NCBI RefSeq assembly: GCF_001294535.1
Contig: NZ_LGIC01000013.1
Span: forward strand, 1 to 64,000
Source of the DNA: Cypionkella psychrotolerans
Lineage (GTDB): Bacteria > Pseudomonadota > Alphaproteobacteria > Rhodobacterales > Rhodobacteraceae
Direction of reading: 5' to 3'
DNA: 64,000 bases
This document shows, piece after piece, positions 931 through 13,320 of this stretch. A program made the position numbers and the translations under genes. The notes beneath the pieces were generated by a model that ran no database searches, had not been told where the DNA came from, and saw only the letters and a program-made list of their open reading frames with translations. Every line of letters begins with the position of its first letter. Position 1 is the stretch's first letter.

Positions 931-1938
931 TCAGCCCAGCCATGCCGCCACGTCAGGCATCAGCTTGAGCGTGGTTGCGATCCGCTCCTGCCACCGCGGA
1001 CCTCGGGACAGCGCATCCTGGTAGGCGTCTTGCAGTTCATCAGGCCTGTCGTCGAGGAGCGCCTCTATCAAAAAGCGCGCCTGCCTGCGATCTTTCTCGG
1101 CCTTGATCCTGTCGCGGGCTTCACGGCGGGCGGCGACGATCAGCTTGTGGATCGCAAATCGCTCAGGTCGCGGGATTTGAACCAATACGCCAGACCGGTA
1201 AAGCACTGCGGCAGGGATGGGTTCGGCGATCAGATAATTCAGGTGGTGCAGCGCCTGTGCAGACACGCCAAGGGCTGCGAGGGGTCGCACACCTTCGTCA
1301 CCAAAGGCCGGTGTCAGAAACTCCACCAGTGCAGCGCCTTTGCTCTGACGCCAGCGCCATGCCGGCCCTGGATCAAGTGTCGGCACCGGCTCGAAAGCAA
1401 AGTCGGCCAACACTTTCTCCATGGGTGGATCGGCCTGATCATCCAGTGCAAGCGACAGACGCTCAAAACTGGCGATATCGAGATCTCCGGTTTGTGCCAG
1501 ATCGTCGAAGCGGTAACGCAGGCCCAACTCTCCTTCATAGAGTCGGAATGCATGGGTGCCCACGACGGTGCCCCCCAGTCGGAAAACACCGGCGGTCGCC
1601 ATTGCGGCCAACAGGCTGCCGGTGGCGGCATCGTGGCTCATAAGGCGTTCTGCGCGCAGAATACGCACCAGCCGCGCCCTCTCGGCAGCACGGCCTTCAG
1701 ACGCGAGCTTCAGCTCTCGATGTCGCGTGATCCGCGCCAGAAGATCAGGGTTCTCTTCTCCGATATAGGTTTTGCGCACATCTGTGCCGATCCGAAAACT
1801 GTCATACCAATAGACGTGCCTGTTGCGCTCGACCCGCGTGGGCGTGCCGCGCAGGCCAGAGGTGCGATCATCCAGCAGCAAGCGCAGCAGATCATGATAG
1901 GCGGCATGTGCTGTGGCAGAGTGGCGGTCAAGTGGCAT
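931..1938 (-). CDS. GSU2403-type nucleotidyltransferase-fold protein
   Basis: 335 aa. The region at residues 121-154 has the nucleotidyltransferase signature: a GG followed after about 28 residues by Asp-Leu-Asp (TGDLDI), the metal-binding D-x-D of the polymerase-beta superfamily. Overall composition and the C-terminal Arg/Ala-rich helices resemble the GSU2403/NTP_transf_8 group, recalled from memory and not searched. The biochemical role of that group is not established to my knowledge. ATG 1938 is chosen over TTG 1944 because it directly follows a GTTCAACG repeat and retains the whole domain. The gene has its own upstream repeat array (1939-2002), so it is probably transcribed apart from the HTH operon 115 bp away. 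By analogy with AbiEii and MNT toxins it could be a toxin or defence effector; this is inference. Confidence 0.7.
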   Translation of the reverse strand: MPLDRHSATAHAAYHDLLRLLLDDRTSGLRGTPTRVERNRHVYWYDSFRIGTDVRKTYIGEENPDLLARITRHRELKLASEGRAAERARLVRILRAERLMSHDAATGSLLAAMATAGVFRLGGTVVGTHAFRLYEGELGLRYRFDDLAQTGDLDIASFERLSLALDDQADPPMEKVLADFAFEPVPTLDPGPAWRWRQSKGAALVEFLTPAFGDEGVRPLAALGVSAQALHHLNYLIAEPIPAAVLYRSGVLVQIPRPERFAIHKLIVAARREARDRIKAEKDRRQARFLIEALLDDRPDELQDAYQDALSRGPRWQERIATTLKLMPDVAAWLG

Positions 1939-2002
1939 GTTCAACGCTCTCGGATTTCGTTGAACATCGCAAAGCGTTCAACGAAAGACAAGTGTGTTGA
2001 AC
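1939..2002. promoter_or_regulatory. Four alternating GTTCAACG half-sites upstream of the nucleotidyltransferase
   Basis: The half-sites are GTTCAACG 1939-1946, CGTTGAAC 1958-1965, GTTCAACG 1976-1983 and TGTTGAAC 1995-2002. Orientation alternates and centres are 19, 18 and 19 bp apart. The first one touches the ATG of the gene read on the minus strand, so a bound protein would block transcription or translation start. An operator for autoregulation or for the neighbouring HTH protein is the simplest reading. Confidence 0.65.
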
Positions 2003-2059
2003 ATAGCTGATGTCCAGCGTTCCAGTGATCGAGGTGACCAGAGGCGCGTCACGCGTCTT

Positions 2060-2245
2060 TCACCGCCGAGGGCTACGCCGTTGCGCATCCAAAGCCTCGC
2101 GCAGCACCTGCACCACAGGCAGGCTTGGTGTGGGCACCCCATCGTAACAGATCGCACGCAGGAGCTCGACCCAACCTTTCTCTGCCTTGGTCAGCGGTCC
2201 ATCTTGCGGCGCAGCAAAATCGTCAAACCTCTTGGGGGCGCTCAT
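2060..2245 (-). CDS. Small hypothetical protein, 61 aa
   Basis: The ATG at 2245 overlaps the TGA of the preceding HTH gene by four bases, indicating translational coupling. The product is charged and probably soluble, with a predicted amphipathic centre (KAEKGWVELLRAIC) and a basic C-terminus. I do not recognise the family. Position between a regulator and a nucleotidyltransferase suggests an accessory or antitoxin-like partner, but only the operon layout supports this. Confidence 0.55.
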   Translation of the reverse strand: MSAPKRFDDFAAPQDGPLTKAEKGWVELLRAICYDGVPTPSLPVVQVLREALDAQRRSPRR

Positions 2246-2640
2246 TTGCCAAAAATCCCACGCAGGGTTGTGCGGCTGCGCGTGGTGACGCGAGGATCGC
2301 CACCTTCAGATGCATCGCGGATCTCATCTAACCATCCACGCTCGTTGACGGTCACGGGGCTGCCGAGGATCTCTACGATGGCAGCCGCAGATGTGCTGCC
2401 GACCGTTTGATCAAGAGCCAACCGCAGCAAGTGGGCTGGATCACAGTCGATCGCTTTTGCCAGAGCAGGCACCCGGTCGAGCGGTAGCTTGGCTGCACCG
2501 GATCTGATCATCGACAGCACATTTGCATTTTTAAACCCGGCTTCAAAAGCCATCTCAGACTGAGTTTTGGGCTTCATTTCCAGAATGCGTCGGTCGAGAA
2601 ACTTCACCAGCGCGGTGTCCTTATGAGGTTTGGTCGTCAT
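2242..2640 (-). CDS. XRE-like helix-turn-helix protein
   Basis: 132 aa. Residues about 24-62 fit a Cro/C1-type helix-turn-helix: TQSEMAFEAGFKNANVLSMI, then a third helix and the LPLDRVPALAKAIDCDP stretch common in XRE regulators. The C-terminal half is unassigned. A clear AAAGGA ribosome site precedes ATG 2640. It is first in a two-gene operon with the 61-aa protein and lies divergent from fic across 283 bp, so it is the best candidate for binding one or both repeat arrays in this element. Confidence 0.75.
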   Translation of the reverse strand: MTTKPHKDTALVKFLDRRILEMKPKTQSEMAFEAGFKNANVLSMIRSGAAKLPLDRVPALAKAIDCDPAHLLRLALDQTVGSTSAAAIVEILGSPVTVNERGWLDEIRDASEGGDPRVTTRSRTTLRGIFGK

Positions 2641-2841
2641 CGCTATCGTCCTTTGCTGCTATTTCGTATCTTCTATATAGCAGGTAAAGACGCGACAGTT
2701 CGTCCGTAAGCGCATGATAGTAATGGGAAAATACGTTGCAAAAGTAGAGACCTAGCAACTGACCCGCCCCAAACAGAACACAGTAAAGGTCCGACGAAAG
2801 GCGGCAACTGATTTGCAGATTGACAGTTGCGGCAATATTGC
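2641..2841. other. Divergent intergenic region between HTH gene and fic
   Basis: AT-rich relative to flanking genes. It carries a TTGACA at 2820-2825 that could be a -35 box for fic, though I see no good -10 at the usual distance. The minus-strand promoter for the HTH gene must also be here, but no clear boxes could be assigned. Confidence 0.3.
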
Positions 2842-2904
2842 GCGACAAAAGAGCGACATATTCCGCGACACTTGTGCGTCACGAGGAGCGACACATGCGC
2901 GTCA
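2842..2904 (+). promoter_or_regulatory. Array of six phased GCG(A/T)CA repeats upstream of fic
   Basis: GCGACA at 2842, 2853, 2865 and 2888 and GCGTCA at 2876 and 2899, each 6 bp, with start-to-start distances of 11, 12, 11, 12 and 11. The sites therefore fall on one face of the helix, with a 23-bp double unit. The array ends 19 bp before the likely fic start. Such an iteron-like arrangement normally serves cooperative binding of a regulator or initiator protein; the binder is unknown. Confidence 0.75.
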
Positions 2905-2923
2905 CCACAATGGGATACTTTTG

Positions 2924-4273
2924 ATGATCAACGCTGATCATGACATCCAGAAGGCGCTTCTCGCAGCGCTTCCGACAGACCTGACCGTGACATCAATCAG
3001 CCAGATTGAACAACGCCTGATGGACCAGGGCGTCACAGTCAGCCGTAGAACCTTGCAGCGCCACTTGGGGCTGCTCGAAGTCACTGGTCAGGTTATCAAA
3101 GAGGGCCGCAGTGTTGCCGTCACATATCGCATCGCTGAGCCTGCAATGTCTGTGGCGGCTACAGGGATCGCCATGTCATCTGCGGGCCGTGAAGTTTGGA
3201 ACCTTGTTGCTCAGCCGGTGATTGCCAAACGCCCGGTGACCTACAACCAAGACTTCCTTGACCACTACACCCCCAACGCCACCTTCTATCTTCCTGACAG
3301 CATGCGCAGCCAGCTGCACGACATGGGCAGGACCGGCACAGCGAACAGACCCGCTGGCACCCACCTGCGCGACGTGATCGGTCGCCTGATGATCGACCTG
3401 TCCTGGGCGTCGTCGAAGCTGGAGGGTAACACCTACACCCGCCTCGATACCGAAAACCTGATCCGCTTCGGCACAGCTGCCCAAGGAAAAGATCTGATCG
3501 ACGCGCAGATGATCCTGAACCACAAAGCTGCCATCGAATTGATTGCCGAGTCGCCAGAGGAGATCGGATACGACAGCTACAGCTTCCTCAACCTGCATGC
3601 CCTGCTATCAGAAAACCTGATGGCGGACCCTGCCGCCTCCGGTCGGCTGCGTCGTCGCCCCGTGGACATTGGCGGCAGCGTTTATACGCCGCTGGCCATC
3701 CCGCAGCGCATCGAGGCGAACTTCCAGACCATCCTCGACAAAGCCGGTCAGATCAGCGACCCGTTCGAGACCTCGTTCTTCCTGATGGTCCACATCCCAT
3801 ATATTCAACCGTTCGAGGATGTGAACAAGCGGGTTTCACGGCTCGGTGCGAACATCCCATTGATCAAGCACAACCTTTCGCCATTGTCGTTCATCGACAT
3901 GCCCGAGGAGGCTTATTTCCGGGGCACTCAGGCCATCTACGAGTTCAACCGCACCGAGTTGCTGGTGGATGTCTACCTGGCCGCCTACGAGCGCTCCTGC
4001 CAGCGCTACGCGGCGATCGTGCAGTCACTGCCAGAACCCGATCCGCTGCGCCTGAGATATCGTGAAGCGATCCGCGCCGCAGTGCGTGATGTTGTTCTGG
4101 ATGGTCATGCGGTGATCGCCGATTATGTTGCGGCTGACACTGATCCCGATGTGCTTACGCTACTCCAAGCCATCGTCGATGCCGAAGTTGCGAACCTGCA
4201 CGAAGGCAACGCGCTCCGCTTCGGTATCAGACGCAGTCAGTTCGAACAGTGGAAGCAGCAATCTGGCAGATGA
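2924..4273 (+). CDS. Fic-domain protein with N-terminal winged helix and degenerate active site
   Basis: 449 aa from ATG 2924; TTG 2921 or a start further upstream are alternatives, as no ribosome site decides. Residues about 20-70 form a winged-helix-like segment (ISQIEQRL...SRRTLQRHLGLLEVTG). Residues 163-168 (SSKLEG) match the (S/T)xxxE(G/N) inhibitory helix of Fic enzymes. The Fic core motif at 295-306 reads QPFEDVNKRVSR: compared with HPFxxGNGRxxR the catalytic His is Gln and the first Gly is Val, while Phe, Asn and both Arg remain. Related QPFxDVNKRTSR proteins exist as a subfamily, so the change is probably inherited. Canonical Fic proteins transfer AMP to target proteins; loss of His makes classical AMPylation doubtful. 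A toxin, regulator or other transferase role is possible. Confidence 0.85.
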   Translation: MINADHDIQKALLAALPTDLTVTSISQIEQRLMDQGVTVSRRTLQRHLGLLEVTGQVIKEGRSVAVTYRIAEPAMSVAATGIAMSSAGREVWNLVAQPVIAKRPVTYNQDFLDHYTPNATFYLPDSMRSQLHDMGRTGTANRPAGTHLRDVIGRLMIDLSWASSKLEGNTYTRLDTENLIRFGTAAQGKDLIDAQMILNHKAAIELIAESPEEIGYDSYSFLNLHALLSENLMADPAASGRLRRRPVDIGGSVYTPLAIPQRIEANFQTILDKAGQISDPFETSFFLMVHIPYIQPFEDVNKRVSRLGANIPLIKHNLSPLSFIDMPEEAYFRGTQAIYEFNRTELLVDVYLAAYERSCQRYAAIVQSLPEPDPLRLRYREAIRAAVRDVVLDGHAVIADYVAADTDPDVLTLLQAIVDAEVANLHEGNALRFGIRRSQFEQWKQQSGR

Positions 4274-4348
4274 TATGTTTCGATCTGCCCACGCCTTGAT
4301 CGACGAAGGTTAGCGAAGCGCAGTCTTCTGTATTCTGCGCCCAGTGTG

Positions 4349-4391
4349 GCGGGACCGGGGACCAGGGGGCCGGGCAGAAACCCGGTCCCGC
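4349..4391. repeat. Inverted repeat with GGGACC motif, left of DUF927 gene
   Basis: GCGGGACCGGG at 4349-4359 pairs perfectly with CCCGGTCCCGC at 4381-4391, and a further GGGACC lies in the loop side. It sits between the convergent ends of fic and the DUF927 gene. No T-run follows on either strand, so an ordinary intrinsic terminator is unlikely. The same GGGACC word recurs at 6246-6309 on the other side of the gene. Confidence 0.65.
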
Positions 4392-4399
4392 GCCCAAAA

Positions 4400-6148
4400 T
4401 CAAATCGGCTTATATCGCATCACATCGGCAATCTTCAGCGTGTAGAGCCGTGGGCGTCCAGGGATGGCACGCGGAGCCTTCTTCATATGCCGACCATCTT
4501 CACCAAGTAGGAGCAACGACATTTTCATCAACGCCGTTGCTGCCGTAGCGGCCGTAGAGCCAGGATAAATTTGGTGCCAGCAATCGGCGGTGAGAAAAAC
4601 TCGACTTGCATCTTTCCATCCAATCGGATCGCTCGAAACCAGAGTGCCCACTTCCGGCAAGGTGTCGAGCTTCGCAGTCAGAAATTGCTGAATGGGCACA
4701 ATCACGTTGGCAAGCCCTTCGTGCTTCGCGCCATGAATTCTGTCGTGCCAGTCGAGGAATGCAGCAGTCGCGAATTTATGAGCATCACCTTCGTCCCAAC
4801 CAGTCAGCTTAAAGGCAGTTGCCAATTCTCCCGCAACGCCCACAAGGGCAAAACGCTGCGCAACTCTGCTGACAACCCCGTCGGACTCCTGAGGAAGCTT
4901 CCCAAGAGACTCCTTGCATAGCTTTGCGAAAAGGGTGCGCACCACGTTATCAACCTTGTCTTGGTGGTCAAGCATTCCTCTGACAAAAGCATGTCCCACT
5001 GCTCCATGGCTCGTCTTGGCCGCGGCTTTCAGCATGTCAGCAAACATTGCCGCAGTTTCCGAACCATGAAGATCATCGAATGCGCCATGTGCTCGGCTGT
5101 CGGCTTCGATGTCGATTAAACGTGCTTCTTGTCCGGCCATCTGCCTCTGACCAGCTTCCTTCAGCTTTTCTGCAACACTGATTTCGCCCGATGAAATCAA
5201 CGCAAGCCGCCAACGCTGAATTTCATCCGGTGTGATGCCCTTGGTCATGCGTGCTTTTCCCGTGCCGTTTGCCAGCATGTAGATGGTCTCCTGCAGCGCA
5301 CGGGCTGAAATTTCGGCAATCTCATCTAGCGGCAGCAGGATGTCGTTGAGATTTGCAGCGATACTTTCCAGGCCATTGCTCGTTGCCCGCCACTGGGTGA
5401 TGAGATCCGCACTTCCCCAAACAGAAGCTGCAAGGTGAAGCAGGGTTGTTTTGCCGGAAGACGATGCACCGCGGAAGTGGAGGCCGCCGCCATCCATCCC
5501 CACACACGCCAGGAGCGGGCCGGAGAAGGCCAGAGACACTGCCAGGACCATCATGGGGTTTCCCCGGCACTTCATGCCGATGTCAGTTTTCCAAGTGCTC
5601 AAGCTGCCGTTTGTGACCAGATGCGCAGCAGGCCCACGCGCCAAGTCCAGCAGCGGCAGAAACGCGCCCTGACCAATCACATTTTTGCCGAGAGCAAACG
5701 CGGACCGGTTCTCACCAACCCAACCCAAGCGCGACACCGACGTCATGCGCCGTGTGGGCTTCCACCGGCCGAGAAGGGCGAGCAGAAGTTCCTTGCACTT
5801 GCGCTCAGGACCCAGCTCCAAGCCATGATTGACAAGTCGGGCAACAACGTCCCCGGGGGCGCGGGTGACGTGCGCATTCATGACCGGAACATCATGCCAA
5901 ACGCCATCGGGACTCTTGACGGAGATAAGCTTGCCCCATCCTGTGCCAGCCAGGTCGGCAAAACCAGCATCAACACGAAGCGGCGAGCAAATGAAAATCG
6001 GCTCACCAGCTTCTTCTTCCGCCAGTGCGTATACGCCATCGTCAAAAAGAGCGTAGCCATCTGGCAGTGAACTGGTCAGTTCTAGTGTATCCGAGTCGAC
6101 CGTGGCAGGCTGCGCCGGGAAGTCGGAAATCTGCACTACGTTGTTCAT
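4400..6148 (-). CDS. DUF927-type P-loop ATPase (probable replicative helicase-like protein)
   Basis: 582 aa. Walker A GASSSGKT at residues 227-234 and Walker B LLPLDE at 271-276. The stretch before the P-loop (SRLGWVGENRSAFALGK) and the spacing match DUF927 proteins, which occur in phages, plasmids and integrative elements, often as helicase partners of primases or initiators. No primase domain is visible. It lies between two GGGACC inverted repeats and downstream of a candidate HUH initiator on the same strand, which suggests a shared role in element replication. This is inference from family and context. Confidence 0.75.
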   Translation of the reverse strand: MNNVVQISDFPAQPATVDSDTLELTSSLPDGYALFDDGVYALAEEEAGEPIFICSPLRVDAGFADLAGTGWGKLISVKSPDGVWHDVPVMNAHVTRAPGDVVARLVNHGLELGPERKCKELLLALLGRWKPTRRMTSVSRLGWVGENRSAFALGKNVIGQGAFLPLLDLARGPAAHLVTNGSLSTWKTDIGMKCRGNPMMVLAVSLAFSGPLLACVGMDGGGLHFRGASSSGKTTLLHLAASVWGSADLITQWRATSNGLESIAANLNDILLPLDEIAEISARALQETIYMLANGTGKARMTKGITPDEIQRWRLALISSGEISVAEKLKEAGQRQMAGQEARLIDIEADSRAHGAFDDLHGSETAAMFADMLKAAAKTSHGAVGHAFVRGMLDHQDKVDNVVRTLFAKLCKESLGKLPQESDGVVSRVAQRFALVGVAGELATAFKLTGWDEGDAHKFATAAFLDWHDRIHGAKHEGLANVIVPIQQFLTAKLDTLPEVGTLVSSDPIGWKDASRVFLTADCWHQIYPGSTAATAATALMKMSLLLLGEDGRHMKKAPRAIPGRPRLYTLKIADVMRYKPI

Positions 6149-6245
6149 TTTCTTATCCTTCAGATGAAAACACCGAGTAACCCCTCGGCAAGGCAGGTTT
6201 ATTCACAGCCAACCAACTGCGTTGTTGTTCTTGGATCGAGGTGTC

Positions 6246-6309
6246 GGGACCATGGGACCGGGGGACCGGCTTGATTTTTGCTGGAGAGCTGCAGCGGTCC
6301 CATGGTCCC
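6246..6309. repeat. Long inverted repeat with GGGACC motifs, right of DUF927 gene
   Basis: GGGACCATGGGACCG at 6246-6260 is perfectly complementary to CGGTCCCATGGTCCC at 6295-6309, a 15-bp stem with a 34-base loop that contains another GGGGACC. A further CGGGAC follows at 6313. It lies between the candidate initiator gene and the DUF927 gene. It could be a replication origin, nicking site, operator or strong mRNA structure. Confidence 0.7.
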
Positions 6310-6321
6310 AGCCGGGACGGT

Positions 6322-7077
6322 TCAGCTCACGCGGCCTGGAAGCTGGTGATCAAGGTTGGCGGCCGCGTCGGCGCGCGCTGCCGTTTGGTAATCTCTGGCA
6401 TCCTGAAGCAATGAGCGTGAAACCCACCAAAGCCGGGCATCAGCATCCAATCTGAGCAGACGACGCGTCAACCGATGATCCATCGTGATGTAGGTCCACC
6501 AGCCGTCTGCGTAGAAGATGTCCCTGTGGTAGAATTGGCGAGAGCCTGAGTGGCTGGCGACCTTTCCGACAGCTTTGCGCATGGCTTCACGAACCAAGCC
6601 GGGATCCACCGCTCCAGCGATATAGACACCATGAATGTGCGGACGCTTTTCCTTTCGCGAGGTCTCAAGGATCAGCAGAATGGGGAGGTTTTGCAGGCCG
6701 CGACTGACGAGCTCACGGTTCATTCGCTGACCGATAGCTCGCATAGGATCTTCTGTAGTCAGGATGAACTTTTCGAATGCCGCAGAGAAGTTCAGCGTTA
6801 CTGCGCGGCCACCGCTGCCGGCTGCAAACCTGATCATTTCTCGGTGGCGTTCGCCGACTGTCAGATCCCTCCAGCGCTTCATAACAGGAGAGTGGGCAGT
6901 GCTGATAGTGACTGAATTGCGACGTGCTTTGTGCTTGGCCAAGACGTTCTTCCTTCTGTATGATAGGGGTGTTGATGGTTTGAAAAGGTTGCAACTGGAC
7001 ATCGTCAGGCGTGCGTCCGCATTTCCCCTTGCAAACAAGGGGATTTCGAAGATTTCGGCCTTCAGAATTTTGGACAT
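6322..7077 (-). CDS. Candidate HUH-type replication initiator or relaxase-like protein
   Basis: 251 aa from ATG 7077; several later Met codons are possible starts because the first 60 residues are not clearly folded. Residues 92-98 (AVTLNFS) resemble motif 1 of rolling-circle initiators. RPHIHGVY with H147 and H149 is a good HUH metal-binding motif 50 residues later. Tyr candidates follow at RQFYHRDIFY and in DARDYQTAAR. The spacing is like phage and plasmid Rep proteins, but I cannot place it in a named family. With the DUF927 ATPase and the inverted repeats next to it, a replication module of the element is the favoured reading. Confidence 0.5.
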   Translation of the reverse strand: MSKILKAEIFEIPLFARGNADARLTMSSCNLFKPSTPLSYRRKNVLAKHKARRNSVTISTAHSPVMKRWRDLTVGERHREMIRFAAGSGGRAVTLNFSAAFEKFILTTEDPMRAIGQRMNRELVSRGLQNLPILLILETSRKEKRPHIHGVYIAGAVDPGLVREAMRKAVGKVASHSGSRQFYHRDIFYADGWWTYITMDHRLTRRLLRLDADARLWWVSRSLLQDARDYQTAARADAAANLDHQLPGRVS

Positions 7078-7202
7078 TATTGCCGGGCACGCGGGCAGGG
7101 TTTACCTGCCTGCGTCTGCTGTGTTCTTCGGTGTGATGTAGTCACCCGAGCGCCCGTCAGTCTCCGCCGCTAGGCGGGTGTGATCGTGGCGTTTCGGGAC
7201 AT

Positions 7203-8138
7203 CTAGGCGCTTGCGGGTGATGACGCTGTCAGATCGAGCCCAATCAAGTGCTTCACGGCCCGGGCCACAAATTCCGGCTCAGGTGCATTCAAAGCGCGCG
7301 CCATCGCCCGTAGGGCAACGACGTCAATCTCAGCGGATCCGCCTTTGCGCAACGTTTCAACCCACTGAGCAGTTCGCTGCGTCACATCCGCCAAAGCGTT
7401 TGCGTCGACCCGCAGGACGGTCATTGCGCGTTGCAGGGCTGTGTCGAAGCTCAGATCCGGGTTGGCAAAGATCTCGGTGGCGACGCTTGCGACATCGCGT
7501 GTTTCAGCGTTGCGGTTCGCAGTAAAGCCGCGCCGTCGTGACAGCCAGCTGAGCGCGTCCTTCGGGTTCAGGGTCAAAGCTTTATCGTCATCGCGTCGGG
7601 TGCCTTCGCGCGCCGCAAACTCCAACTTAAATCCCTCTTTGCTCAGAGACGTGCGGACCGCCGGGACCGTCATATTGGAGAGCAATGACAACGCGCGCAC
7701 CGACACGCCGCTCCAATCCTCGAATTCGTAGAGTTCCCATCTTGCCAGAAATGTTTCAAACATGCGGCGCAGAGGGAAGTCGTTGAGCTTGCAGAACGGC
7801 GAAGGCTCGCCATGCAAATCTGTCTGCGGGAAGCCGTTCAGCACGCCGCATGCCAATTCATAATGTGTCTCATCGGATGCCATTTCCAGCCCATCAAGTT
7901 GGTAGGCATACGCGTAAGCGGCGCGTGCATAGTCGTAGAGACCGTATTGTTCAATCTTGATGGCGGTGCCGCCTAGGTTTTCGATCTCCTCGCTAGGGTC
8001 TCCCCCAAGGTATTGTTGTGCAAAACCGCTGGCTTTCGGACCGGTGTAGTCGAGGATAGAGGCTTGGCACATGATCGCCACGCGTAGCTGATCCTCGATC
8101 TCGGCCCAAGTGTAGGGGATGTGGTTGTTGGTGCTCAT
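7203..8138 (-). CDS. Hypothetical island protein with probable DNA-binding segment
   Basis: 311 aa. The N-terminal half is rich in acidic and aromatic residues and is not recognised. Residues about 140-205 (VSVRALSLLSNMTVPAVRTSL, then NPKDALSWLSRRRGF) look like the two halves of an excisionase or MerR-like winged helix, as found in proteins of other alphaproteobacterial islands. It has its own upstream region facing the small ORF at 8297. A role in controlling excision or element gene expression is plausible but not shown. Confidence 0.55.
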   Translation of the reverse strand: MSTNNHIPYTWAEIEDQLRVAIMCQASILDYTGPKASGFAQQYLGGDPSEEIENLGGTAIKIEQYGLYDYARAAYAYAYQLDGLEMASDETHYELACGVLNGFPQTDLHGEPSPFCKLNDFPLRRMFETFLARWELYEFEDWSGVSVRALSLLSNMTVPAVRTSLSKEGFKLEFAAREGTRRDDDKALTLNPKDALSWLSRRRGFTANRNAETRDVASVATEIFANPDLSFDTALQRAMTVLRVDANALADVTQRTAQWVETLRKGGSAEIDVVALRAMARALNAPEPEFVARAVKHLIGLDLTASSPASA

Positions 8139-8296: not shown

Positions 8297-8500
8297 ATGA
8301 TCACCAAGTCGGCGAAACAGCGGGATATCGAAATCGAACGGCTGCGCGCAGCTTTGCTGAAGGTGGCGAAGTTGGTAGATGCTGATCCCGTCTATCTTCC
8401 GCTTTTCGAACGCTTAGAGGTCGAGATTGCCTTGGACCAGTCGATGGGTGACGCGATCACGCGGGCGCGTCTGATTGCGCGTCAGAGGGCGATGGTCTGA
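8297..8500 (+). CDS. Small hypothetical protein, 67 aa
   Basis: ATG 8297 follows an AGAAGAG purine run at a good distance. The product is helical and charged (EIERLRAALLKVAKLVDADP) with no membrane segment. Its last 19 bases overlap the 3' end of the convergent integrase gene. I do not recognise it. Confidence 0.5.
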   Translation: MITKSAKQRDIEIERLRAALLKVAKLVDADPVYLPLFERLEVEIALDQSMGDAITRARLIARQRAMV

Positions 8501-9750
8501 ACGACCTGCTGCAGGTGCTCCAACGTGGCGCCCTGGCCGTAACGTTCTCTGCCCAAAGCATGACCAAACAAATCACGACGGATCCGTTCATCAACGCCTG
8601 CCGCCAACATCCGGTCCTCGAATGCGTGCCTGAGGCTGTAGAGCGTGTGGCCAGGTGTCTCCATCAGCCCGTTTTCACGCATGAACTTGTTGACCGTCGC
8701 TGACAGTGAAGGGTTGTCGCGATAGCGCGGAAAGCCATCAGGACATTCACGAAACGCCTCCAGACTTACTCCTGTAAGCGGGATCACGCGCTTGGCGTGC
8801 TTGCTTTTCAGCTGGCGGCCCACAGGCTCGATCGAAATATGCGGCACCCTCGCCGCCAAGTTGATATGTGCGCTCAGCAATCCAGCGCCCTCACTCGGAC
8901 GATATCCGGTGTTAACCATTCCCAGCACGATGCAGCGTGCCTCGGTATTCAAGCCACCCAAAGCGCCGGGTGCCAGGATCTTCTCTTTGATCCACTCCAC
9001 GGAAAACGGTGGCCGCTGACGTTGCTCGCCCTCTTTGATCGCCAGATCGGATAGCGGCAACACAAGGCCCAGCCGCTTCAGCCGGTTCACCGTCTTGAAG
9101 ATGTCGCCTAAGTGAACGAGGTCCTTGTTGCCGCTGTTGGCGGTCAGATCCTCAAGCTCTATCCGCTCCATCCACCAATTGCGGAAATCAAGCATGTCAT
9201 CGCCCGTGATCCTGGCAAGAGCCTTGTCGCCGATGAGATCAACGAAGTTGTTCACCGCCTTCACTCGGGGGTTTTTCCAGCGTCGCAGCTGATCCTCGCT
9301 CTTGCCGAAGGTTTTATCCTTGGCGAGCGTCCAGTAAAGCTCCAGCGCCTTGCTTACCGTAATCTCTGGCTCAACGGCTCCGCCAAGAATGGCCGCCGCC
9401 TCGATCAAATTCGGGCCTGATCTTGTCTGCGGCACCGCCTCAATTCGAGTGAGCAGTTCGTCGCGTTCCAATTTGGCGACATCGGCCACTTTCATAAACC
9501 GGAAGCCGCGGGCAGAGGCCAGCTCCCGAGCGGCCGCAAACCTCGTTTCAGCATCACTGCTATCGCCCGCGAGAAGCGCTTCCCATCCTTCGACCATGTT
9601 GGCCCAAGCCGTAACCTCCTTCGTGGCCGCAAGCGCCTCCGAGTCAGTGTGCAGACTTACCCAGACAAACTGACGGGGCTCTACAGCCGCGTAGCGCTTG
9701 GGCACACGCTTATAAAGATACTGGGTTTTGCCACGCTTCTTGATTGCCAT
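8482..9750 (-). CDS. int: Tyrosine recombinase integrase of the element
   Basis: 422 aa from ATG 9750; the frame is open upstream but MAIKKRGKTQYLYKRVPKRY is the usual beginning of integrases with a DUF6538-like N-terminus. Catalytic residues visible: R284 in NTGYRPSEG, K315 or K317 in the following beta region, R374 in YSLRH (Tyr371 stands at the first position of the HxxR box, seen in other members), H397 in LFGHAL and the nucleophile Y404 in RERYGQG. It lies 173 bp from the tRNA-Ser 3' end on the same strand, the usual position next to the attachment site. It would catalyse site-specific integration and excision. Confidence 0.92.
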   Translation of the reverse strand: MAIKKRGKTQYLYKRVPKRYAAVEPRQFVWVSLHTDSEALAATKEVTAWANMVEGWEALLAGDSSDAETRFAAARELASARGFRFMKVADVAKLERDELLTRIEAVPQTRSGPNLIEAAAILGGAVEPEITVSKALELYWTLAKDKTFGKSEDQLRRWKNPRVKAVNNFVDLIGDKALARITGDDMLDFRNWWMERIELEDLTANSGNKDLVHLGDIFKTVNRLKRLGLVLPLSDLAIKEGEQRQRPPFSVEWIKEKILAPGALGGLNTEARCIVLGMVNTGYRPSEGAGLLSAHINLAARVPHISIEPVGRQLKSKHAKRVIPLTGVSLEAFRECPDGFPRYRDNPSLSATVNKFMRENGLMETPGHTLYSLRHAFEDRMLAAGVDERIRRDLFGHALGRERYGQGATLEHLQQVVQTIAL

Positions 9751-9922
9751 GATGTCGCTGACCTCGCACTGCCGCGTTACAATGGTCGAATCGGCATCGA
9801 GTGTAAAGCAAAGTGTAGCGCAAATTGTATAGCAATTTCCCACTAGAACGTCGAACGCGTAGGCTCTCAGTTAACTTTTTCCTGTATTTTCAATGACTTG
9901 CACGGTTAAACAAATGTGAAAA

Positions 9923-10012
9923 TGGCGGATCGATAGGGATTCGAACCCTAGAGACGGTTCCCCGCCTACACACTTTCCAGGCGTGCGCCTTCGACCACTC
10001 GGCCACCGATCC
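9923..10012 (-). tRNA. tRNA-Ser (anticodon GGA), integration target
   Basis: Minus strand folds as a class II tRNA. Acceptor GGATCGG pairs with TCGATCC, the anticodon loop CTGGAAA carries GGA, a long variable arm follows, and the T arm has GGTTCGAATCC. The CCA end is encoded at 9923-9925. The integrase gene follows the 3' end, so the crossover most likely lies in the T arm/acceptor part and the tRNA was restored on integration. Confidence 0.95.
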
Positions 10013-10834: not shown

Positions 10835-13320
10835 GCGTCGGTGTCCTTGGCTTTTGGGCGGCTTGATGGGGCGGCGTCCGGCTCGGCCAAAAACACAGCG
10901 ACGGCGTCCAACGCAGCTTGTTCCTCGGCCTTGGCTTCGGCATCCGCCGCCGCCTCATCCGCCAGACGCTTCAGGTAATCGCGATGCGCGTTGGTGAACA
11001 AGATGCCCTCGGCGTGGAACCGCTCGGCAATCTGGTGGTTGATCTCCGAGCGCACCGGCACCTGAAAATAGATATCCCGCACGATGACGCGGATCTCAAA
11101 ATTCATCAGCTCGCCGGTGAAGCCCATCAGCGCGATGATCGGCGGCGGTGTCAAAATCGCCAGAGGTTGCGCCTCAACGATCTCACGTAGGATCGCCTCC
11201 ACCCGGCGGCTGTCCGAGGTGAACGGCACCGAGACCGGCACAATCATCCGGCCCGACATGTTGAACCGGGTCCAGTTCGTCACCCGCCCGGTGATCAGAT
11301 CCGAATTCGGCACGATCACGTCCGAGCGGTCAAAGGTCTGGATCCGGGTCGAGCGCACCGAGATCGCCTTGACGATGCCCGAGGTGGTGCCGACCTCGAT
11401 CCAGTCGCCCTCAGACACCGGGCGTTCGACCAGCAAGATCACGCCCGAGACAAAGTTCGACACAATCGTCTGCAAGCCAAAACCGATGCCGACCGACAAG
11501 GCCGAGGCCACCAGTGCGAAGCCCGACAGATCAATCCCCGCCGCCGTGATCGCCAGCAGCGCCGACAAAAACACCCCGGCATAGCCCACGCCCGAGATGA
11601 TGGCGTTCTTGCCGCCCTGATCCAGCGAGGTGCGCGGCAGGATCGAGGATTTCAAGCCCCCCTGCACCAGTCGCATCACCGCATAGCTGACCCCGAACAC
11701 CGCGACGAGGATGATGAAGCTGGTCGGCGATATCCGCACGCCACCCAAGGAGACGCCAGAGCGGAACGCCGCCCACAGATCCACCAGATCGACCACCCGC
11801 GCGCCCCAGATCAGCGCCAGCAGCGGCAGCGCCGCACAGGTGATCACCAGACCGGCGATGATCGGCATCAAGCCATCGTGCCGGGCCTCAGGCGTGCGCG
11901 CCACCGTCACATACAATTCGGCAAAGAAGCCTTGCAGCACGACCACCATCGCAAACAGCGACAAGGTGTTGATCGCAGGCCAGATCAGCGCATTGGCGGC
12001 ACTGACATAGCCGATCACGCCCAGAGCCGGGGCAACCACCGCGATTGCGATGGCGGCAGAAGATACCCAATAGATCAGCTCAAACCGGAACGCGCCGTCC
12101 GTGCCGCTGCGCCCCACCGCGCTTTGCCGCCGCAAGATATGGCCCAGCCGATAGAGCGCAACCGCCGCGAAAATCTGCAACGGCACCACGATCACCGAAA
12201 TCGCCGCATCCGTTGCCTGCGCCACCTGCTGCGCGCGATCTGCCCCGATGTTGCTGGCAGCCCCGCCTAGAAAATTCGCAGCCCTCGGCACGATCCACGC
12301 CGCCACCAGATCGTAAACGGCAACCGAGACCCCCAGCAACACCGCTTGCAGCCGCCCCTCGGCGCGGCCCTCGGGCCCAAGTCCAATGGCGCTTTCCGTG
12401 GCAGGATCGGTTGGGAAGATATGATGCGCCAGCCAGCGTGTCAGGAAAATCACCAACACCACGGCGGGCAGCGCTGCAAACAGCGACAGGATGATCGGCC
12501 CAAACAGCGAGGCCCGCTCCAGCGCCATATACAGCAACACCGCCCCCACCACGGGCAAAGCCACTTGACCCAAAGACACAAAGCCCGAGATCAGATTGCG
12601 CCCGCGCATGTGGGTTTTCGTCAGCAGCCAGTAGGTCAACCGCCGCATCCAATGGCCGCCGCGCACCAACAACAGCAGCGCCGACAGCACCAGAACCACA
12701 ATCAACGGCGCATTGTCGCGCAGTTGATCGACGTTCATCGGCCGGGTGAAGCGCCAGCGGGTTTCATCCCAGATCCACTGCCCCATCCAGCGGAACATCG
12801 ACGCCGCCGTCGGCCAGTTCACCGGGTTCAGCGCCGAGGGAGACAAGCGCAGCAATTTATCGGCATGACGCTCGCGGATCAGCTTATCAATCGACGCGAT
12901 GGTGCTGTCGGCACGGGTGGTGGCCTCGGTGGCGGTCAGCACCGGCGCTTGCAGCTTGGCCAACTCCGCGCTCAGCTCACCCCGCCGCTTGGCGATCATC
13001 GCATCCTCGGTCTGACCCTCAGCGGGCACCGGGCCCAGCGCGGCAATTTGGTTTTTCACCGTGGCGATCTGGTCGGCGTTGCTGCCTTGTGCGGCGCTGA
13101 AGGTCGAGCGCCATTTTACCATCTCGGCGCGCATACTGCTCAAGCGTTCGTCATCAATCTGCGCTTTGACGACAACATCCTCGATCTGCGACACCGTGGT
13201 GTCGAAGGTCTTGTAATCCTCAGGTTTAAGCGCGTCTTGCGCAAGGGCTGGGCCAGCCTGCCCCAGCGCCGCCAGCAGCGCCAGAACCAGCAGCGCCCTG
13301 CGCAGCATCAGACCAATCAT
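10831..13320 (-). CDS. DUF3772-containing mechanosensitive channel of the MscS superfamily
   Basis: 829 aa inner-membrane protein. A signal peptide (cleavage near GPALAQ) leads to a coiled, periplasmic DUF3772 region up to about residue 200. About ten hydrophobic segments follow, then the MscS core with the pore helix region (SALSVGIGFGLQTIVSNFVSG) and the beta domain RSTRIQTFDRSDVIVPNSDL. The C-terminus is Ala/Glu-rich. Large MscK-like members release solutes on hypo-osmotic shock. The start overlaps the cysK stop by four bases. Confidence 0.88.
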   Translation of the reverse strand: MIGLMLRRALLVLALLAALGQAGPALAQDALKPEDYKTFDTTVSQIEDVVVKAQIDDERLSSMRAEMVKWRSTFSAAQGSNADQIATVKNQIAALGPVPAEGQTEDAMIAKRRGELSAELAKLQAPVLTATEATTRADSTIASIDKLIRERHADKLLRLSPSALNPVNWPTAASMFRWMGQWIWDETRWRFTRPMNVDQLRDNAPLIVVLVLSALLLLVRGGHWMRRLTYWLLTKTHMRGRNLISGFVSLGQVALPVVGAVLLYMALERASLFGPIILSLFAALPAVVLVIFLTRWLAHHIFPTDPATESAIGLGPEGRAEGRLQAVLLGVSVAVYDLVAAWIVPRAANFLGGAASNIGADRAQQVAQATDAAISVIVVPLQIFAAVALYRLGHILRRQSAVGRSGTDGAFRFELIYWVSSAAIAIAVVAPALGVIGYVSAANALIWPAINTLSLFAMVVVLQGFFAELYVTVARTPEARHDGLMPIIAGLVITCAALPLLALIWGARVVDLVDLWAAFRSGVSLGGVRISPTSFIILVAVFGVSYAVMRLVQGGLKSSILPRTSLDQGGKNAIISGVGYAGVFLSALLAITAAGIDLSGFALVASALSVGIGFGLQTIVSNFVSGVILLVERPVSEGDWIEVGTTSGIVKAISVRSTRIQTFDRSDVIVPNSDLITGRVTNWTRFNMSGRMIVPVSVPFTSDSRRVEAILREIVEAQPLAILTPPPIIALMGFTGELMNFEIRVIVRDIYFQVPVRSEINHQIAERFHAEGILFTNAHRDYLKRLADEAAADAEAKAEEQAALDAVAVFLAEPDAAPSSRPKAKDTDA

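Follow-up and report, generated by a model that had tools for sequence, protein, structure and literature searches.

Which protein starts the replication of an integrative element, and on which DNA does it act? The question is raised by an element at a tRNA-Ser gene of Cypionkella psychrotolerans (Alphaproteobacteria), which we studied in positions 1 to 64,000 of contig NZ_LGIC01000013.1 (hereafter the window, the whole 64,000-nucleotide stretch). Three minus-strand genes follow one another there, encoding a 311-aa protein (7203-8138), a 251-aa protein with an RPHIHG motif (the HIH protein; 6322-7077) and a 582-aa DUF927 helicase (4400-6148), and the last gene is flanked on both sides by inverted repeats that share the word GGGACC (4349-4391 and 6246-6309). 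A first-pass annotation had seen a replication module in this arrangement, with the HIH protein as a HUH enzyme and the stem at 6246-6309 as its origin or nick site. All of these parts lie where that annotation had placed them, and it is likely, by its sequence, that 4349-8138 serves an integrative element at tRNA-Ser as its replication module; the assignment of the repeats to the HUH protein, as origin stem or nick site, was not supported. Our analysis points instead to a DUF927-iteron origin, with the HIH protein as an accessory nickase, as the probable arrangement.

The DUF927 helicase and its GGGACC repeats

The 582-aa protein belongs to the DUF927 family (PF06048; 8.5e-62, 209.8 bits versus a gathering score of 22.6) and matches phrog_1139 (7.8e-60) over positions 357-788 of the 895-position profile. 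Comparison with the PDB returned 8tch_A, a pathogenicity-island protein (7.9e-19), and 5dgk_A, described as an "active helicase" (2.5e-8), and a three-sequence DUF927 profile gave 1.1e-26 and 6.4e-13 for the same two entries. We take 8tch to be the Rep protein of a Staphylococcus aureus pathogenicity island (SaPI) and 5dgk to be Cch of the staphylococcal cassette chromosome mec (SCCmec). The model NF047345 (SCCmet_Cch1) also matched (1.8e-14), at 53.2 bits against a cut-off of 700, and the protein is, as judged by these scores, a relative of Cch1 and not a Cch1. Its structure model was poor (predicted local distance difference test, pLDDT, 45.7) and was not used. According to the accessible text of PMC7581432, Cch, which contains DUF927, is a relative of SaPIbov1 Rep, and in SaPI Rep it is the C-terminal domain that recognises iterons immediately 3′ of the protein's own gene; the available part of PMC6092414 describes the origins of phage-inducible chromosomal islands (PICIs) as an AT-rich region between two iteron sets, 3′ of rep. 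The window's DUF927 protein is a candidate for a self-loading initiator of replication, of the same kind as SaPIbov1 Rep or SCCmec Cch.

The candidate 3′ iteron cluster (4349-4391) holds GGGACC at 4351 and 4358 on the plus strand and at 4384 on the minus strand, the nearest copy beginning 10 bp past the DUF927 stop codon, and its arms (4349-4359 and 4381-4391) pair at 11 of 11 positions across a 21-nt spacer. The candidate 5′ cluster (6246-6309), located between the HIH and DUF927 genes, has three plus-strand copies with a period of 8 (6246, 6254 and 6262) and two minus-strand copies (6296 and 6304); its arms (6246-6260 and 6295-6309), separated by 34 nt, form the perfect 15-bp stem that had been reported before (15/15 paired). 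Across the window the word is under-represented (15 observed versus 34.6 expected), and 8 of the 15 copies fall within the two clusters. The spaced pair GGGACCN{2,4}GGGACC was observed three times against 0.02 expected, and the Poisson P multiplied by the number of sites was 2.5e-4 for three copies in 43 bp and 6e-9 for five copies in 64 bp, both computed post hoc with the clusters already seen. The case for significance in the window rests on the word itself, a 6-mer, and on relatives having conserved it.

Repeat arrays of DUF927 genes in relatives and on plasmids

Relatives of the DUF927 protein (E ≤ 1e-20) occurred in 29 of 389 genomes of the family, its own genome included; additional places in genomes G302, G444 and G370 had no locus and were not counted, and the gene contains stop codons at loci L095 and L113. 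The DNA 3′ of 25 DUF927 stop codons carried short repeats in many cases, mostly with a 9-bp spacing and with differing words. In a blind test, the best repeated 7-mer per 300 bp was compared with 300 dinucleotide shuffles (L114 and L124-L128, being duplicates or pieces, were excluded), and significant arrays were found downstream of 21 of 46 DUF927 genes, upstream of 1 of 43 and in 0 of 92 intragenic windows. Of these 21, four or five are open to doubt (L111 has a poly-C run, L085 is not driven by GGGACC, and L121 and L122 have an identical AT-only word); the near copies L118 and L120 were not significant. A 6-mer test over 250 bp at 25 loci placed eight at 0/500 shuffles and above their own gene windows, with the GGGACC group absent from them; a ninth locus, L102, was also at 0/500 but not above its own gene windows. 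At the same 25 loci, an 8-mer test allowing one mismatch put eight at 0/60, again without the GGGACC group, and L085 at 1/60 via another word.

Iteron cores were picked by eye at 15 loci, six of which (L091, L093, L094, L096, L099 and L103) had an AT-rich stretch (60-80%) between iterons; the sets flanking it were inverted in L096, L099 and L103 and in the same direction in L091 and L093. Iteron word and helicase clade agree: the six DUF927 helicases with nearby GGGACC words form one clade (Shimodaira-Hasegawa-like approximate likelihood ratio test, 99), and L099 and L103, sister rows in the tree, have GGTCCAA in common, in a tree that was built by a quick method without bootstrap and omits L111, L113, L118, L120, L121 and L122. 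In G051, G323 and G449, copies of GGTCCC or GGTCC lie at distances of 21-47 nt, counted from the first base of the stop codon, and two of the three window copies fall in the same range. Of 295 family genomes, two had the strict array GGGACCNNGGGACCNNGGGACC, each at the DUF927-HIH module; its backwards control occurred in one genome, G285, twice. Given this attachment of the repeats to the helicase gene, those in the window are best read as putative iterons of the DUF927 helicase, and the stem at 6246-6309 appears better read as inverted iteron sets than as a nick-site hairpin. GGGACC arrays were also met in 13 stretches of viral contigs, where hmmsearch found neither HIH nor DUF927 (including L043, with dozens of tandem GGGACC words at 11205-12048), and were read as unrelated tandem repeats.

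Database comparison gave 57 plasmid and 10 phage matches to DUF927, and seven of the plasmids and none of the phages were analysed. Arrays lie downstream of the DUF927 gene in pSR-7 (GGTACCACC), pMNOD05 (TGTCACACC) and a Photobacterium record (GTTACAC words), and upstream of it, not downstream, in the circular pMARC5 (L134, NC_019367.1). Iterons combine with AT-rich DNA in layouts akin to those of PICIs on plasmids L132 and L133 and, in a position 5′ of the gene, on L134. For the circular plasmids pMNOD05, pSR-7 and pMARC5, no other initiator is annotated in the PLSDB tables, which are incomplete (37 of 43 features for pSR-7). The Photobacterium record L133 (NZ_AP024859.1) is linear and 9.8 kb long and encodes a protelomerase, a phage-like protease and DUF927, the last with GTTACAC-type arrays and AT-rich DNA behind it. 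pMARC5 carries DISARM genes together with DUF927.

Two contigs were considered as excised circles and rejected. Contig G449:C7 (33,980 bp) is read as circular because its DUF927 frame stays open across both ends; it also encodes an RPA initiator and ParA, and gives no proof of DUF927-driven replication. The ends of the G051 contig (24,759 bp) do not overlap. Its title states a coverage of 1019.97, a single contig's figure with no comparison within the assembly.

The proposed origin, the HIH protein and competing explanations

From these comparisons we infer a course of excision, binding, loading, replication and nicking. The integrase would excise the element from tRNA-Ser as a circle; the DUF927 protein would bind the GGGACC iterons that flank its own gene, probably via its C-terminal domain, assemble there as hexamers and unwind the DNA; and host polymerases would copy the opened circle, from an iteron origin like that of the SaPI and PICI satellites. 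The HIH protein would be a HUH endonuclease present in a minority of modules, most likely an accessory nickase, which may nick for a second replication mode or for strand transfer.

Several observations weigh against a DUF927-iteron origin. The window's flanks were unremarkable in the blind tests, with shuffles equally good in 294/300 cases downstream and 22/300 upstream (exact 7-mers), in 225/500 downstream (6-mers) and in 4/60 downstream (8-mers with one mismatch), and 25 of the 46 DUF927 genes, the window's included, had no significant downstream array. In the window, the arrays are short and lack AT-rich DNA (43% AT between the 6246-6309 sets; at most 24% in any 25 bp of the downstream cluster), and the four GGGACC loci among the 15 examined lack an AT-rich core, their downstream clusters reaching a maximum of 24-28% AT per 25 bp. 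Within the GGGACC clade, the downstream cluster is absent in two of six members (G118 and G342), and G051 and G118 have the module but gave no match to the strict array. No primase was seen adjoining DUF927, unlike in SaPIs, and the window does not extend to the element's left end. Among the plasmids, no clear array was seen on L130 or on L135, which has two DUF927 genes, and the three copies on L129 were equalled by 19/300 shuffles; some plasmids with DUF927 carry another initiator as well (RepB on L129, RepM on L130, RPA on G449:C7), and MOB-suite assigns pMARC5 a replicon type. Finally, the DUF927 genes conserved in Vibrio islands, whose role the available text of PMC7449626 calls puzzling or elusive, are reported there as dispensable in mobilization.

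The HIH protein presents AVTLNF as motif 1, RPHIHG as motif 2 and GWWTYITMD as motif 3, and an upstream Glu, both His of HxH and a downstream Trp and Tyr are invariant in the 12 aligned members of its family. An upstream Glu, HxH and then Trp/Tyr is the order of Rep-type, not relaxase-type, HUH enzymes. The Lys of the YxxK motif 3, which is usual but not universal in HUH Reps, is found in 10 of the 12 sequences and is Met in the window protein. The window's HIH protein had no meaningful match to any library model scanned, Pfam, PHROG and NCBIfam among them; REP_ORF2-G2P (PF23343) matched six of the 12 family members, the window's own not included, with weak E-values (best 1.1e-4), and a phage replication-initiation family matched three (best 0.0018). 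The family is rare (7 of 195 relatives, 7 of 394 family, 7 of 390 order and 3 of 299 phylum genomes, each count including the own genome), and a search of viral contigs, plasmids and phages gave no match.

The fold model of the HIH protein was weak (pLDDT 59). The first 28 Foldseek rows obtained with it were all Rep domains of adeno-associated virus 2 (AAV2) from six entries (TM-score ≤0.30, root-mean-square deviation 8-13.5), the best being Rep68 at 7.4e-4 (TM-score 0.30, deviation 10.8). VIA-align listed SIRV1 ORF119 (presumably a HUH Rep), B19 NS1 and the IS608 transposase at Z 5.4-6.3, alongside SAM-AMP lyase (6.2) and PII-like folds (5.4), and with this model a Z near 6 proves little about the HIH fold. 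Motifs and family matches together make the HIH protein a probable Rep-type single-tyrosine HUH endonuclease, in line with the first-pass annotation. It looks accessory because it stands beside DUF927 in just 4 of 29 loci (L085-L113), namely those of the window, G051, G118 and G342; in G449, a distant HIH relative lies ~4 kb from DUF927 on the same contig. As judged by eye, other HIH genes are preceded by a similar open reading frame of ~150 aa (L010, L012, L030 and L031) and have tape-measure-like (L012, L030 and L031) or terminase-like genes (L012 and L030) nearby.

In all four GGGACC-clade members with HIH adjoining DUF927, the HIH gene has a second GGGACC set nearby; neither of the other two members has one upstream of DUF927. 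Outside the window, this second set is intergenic between HIH and DUF927 in G051 and G118 (start codons placed by eye), and G342 has it upstream of the HIH gene. This pattern keeps the nick-site idea open. A more tentative reading, which we hold possible though rather doubtful, is a two-initiator replicon, in which a single-tyrosine HUH nickase and a DUF927 ring helicase from a gene of its own would recognise one and the same word, GGGACC, at two sites, as a split-gene counterpart of the Reps of AAV and of circular Rep-encoding single-stranded (CRESS) DNA viruses. Such a replicon, if real, could let an integrated island alternate between bubble-type and rolling-circle modes of replication.

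A rolling-circle replicon, in which the HIH protein is the main initiator nicking the 6246-6309 stem-loop and the DUF927 protein merely unwinds, seems unlikely. It would accommodate the HUH motifs with their conserved Tyr, the AAV2 Rep domains at the head of the Foldseek list, the second GGGACC set and the hairpin itself, which folds well as a single strand (6240-6315, z -4.1). Set against these are the 25 of 29 DUF927 loci without HIH in the flanks examined, many of which have arrays nonetheless, a repeat word that tracks the helicase clade, and the HIH genes without adjoining DUF927, which had an array downstream in 0 of 7 cases and upstream in 1 of 7 (weak); the same points tell against the stem as a HUH nick site. 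The replacement of the motif 3 Lys by Met also argues against this replicon, and no common nick sequence was seen by eye in the gaps between iterons, where no motif search was run.

We regard it as improbable that the GGGACC words are operators, by which the DUF927, HIH or 311-aa protein would regulate the operon without a role in replication. The 6246-6309 cluster does lie in the DUF927 leader, and iterons often serve as operators too, but the arrays are mostly 3′ of the DUF927 stop codon, a poor operator site for that gene, and some have AT-rich DNA between their sets. Least credible is that the repeats are just transcription terminators or GC-rich palindromes arisen by chance: 4349-4391 is GC-rich, lies just past the stop codon and is a modest folder (4345-4395, z just -1.8), but neither repeat gave a terminator-like match (GC-rich stem plus T run), relatives have direct 7-9-bp spacing with clade-specific words, and the strict array is confined to these modules among the 295 genomes.

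Known systems and the layout of the element

The rep-ori modules of SaPIs and PICIs (SaPIbov1 Rep; E. coli PICIs) are alike in having a DUF927-type initiator helicase (SaPIbov1) and short repeats directly 3′ of its gene, as far as the accessible text of PMC6092414 and PMC7581432 describes them, and the window has a GGGACC cluster in that place, weak by the blind tests. Two iteron sets around AT-rich DNA, as in PICIs, are lacking in the window and present in L096, L099, L103, L132 and L134. As for a primase, the HIH and 311-aa proteins had no primase match, and the PHROG match of the DUF927 protein spans only the part of the profile given above. The window further differs from SaPIs and PICIs in the HUH gene in front, in GGGACC words on both sides of the helicase gene, in the tRNA-Ser element and in its alphaproteobacterial host. 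No terminase match was obtained among the nine window proteins scanned, which do not include the element's missing left end.

The SCCmec Cch (pattern 1) helicase is of the same domain family, whereas the window element has a tyrosine, not a large serine, recombinase and its helicase falls below the Cch1 cut-off; the accessible parts of the literature on Cch do not mention a HUH gene beside it. The Reps of AAV, other parvoviruses and CRESS-DNA viruses join the HUH nuclease and ring helicase activities expected here, and the fold search led to AAV Rep and B19 NS1. Short GC-rich iterons are likewise a feature of these viral Reps. The window differs in having two separate genes and a DUF927 in place of a superfamily 3 helicase, and the likeness is functional, not shown as descent.

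Among the matches listed for the open-access literature, titles and abstracts reported neither iterons of proteobacterial DUF927 helicases nor a HUH-DUF927 pair, and among those listed for DUF927 with iteron, helicase or replication origin only PMC7581432, in its accessible text, contains DUF927. The parts are of known kinds; the generality of DUF927-adjoining arrays and the HUH partner look new. The adjoining array would offer a clonable, testable candidate origin for many DUF927 elements, and DUF927 arrays would extend a satellite-type origin to plasmids and to islands with defence genes. These findings hint that replication origins in the style of virus satellites are more widespread than thought, and the HUH partner raises the question of why an island retains two initiators.

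The right end of the element is formed by a tyrosine integrase gene on the minus strand (8482-9843; 453 aa; Phage_integrase 9.8e-8, phrog_1 3.5e-27) beside tRNA-Ser(GGA) (9923-10012, minus strand), the probable attachment site. Alignments to the window stop at 9915-9923, the 3′ end of the tRNA, in G004, G005, G007 and G009; G005 has a fragment of a related integrase farther along (66% over 369 nt), and G001 has the same integrase at tRNA-Ser (84.6% over 1752 nt) with different genes behind it. The left end was not located because the window starts at the contig end. The 22-base word at the tRNA 3′ end has no second copy in the own genome (≤2 mismatches), and a search via the G005 flank gave 34 weak own-genome matches (best 70% over 482 nt), which were read as paralogous transporters and rejected. 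An open frame on the minus strand at 1-500 has a translation that looks like an IS21-type transposase, which would explain the contig break.

The 311-aa protein, encoded in the same direction upstream of the HIH gene, had no match in Pfam, PHROG or NCBIfam, and its relatives occur in two other DUF927-bearing stretches (G118 and G449). Genes for CRISPR-Cas type I-D (Cas1b, Cas3d, Cas7d and Cas6d) are found on the G051 contig C99 (L008 20-8873, also L034) that holds HIH, DUF927 and GGGACC, and a type I restriction specificity subunit and the candidate defence gene HEC-05 lie near the DUF927-HIH module of G118 (L009 18-5365). The window's own likely cargo, at 931-4273, comprises a Fic protein (SoFic and PDC-S04 matches), a nucleotidyltransferase (PF12281) and a helix-turn-helix gene, relatives of the last being found on the contig of G051 (L033) and, in G538, close to an HIH gene (L032).

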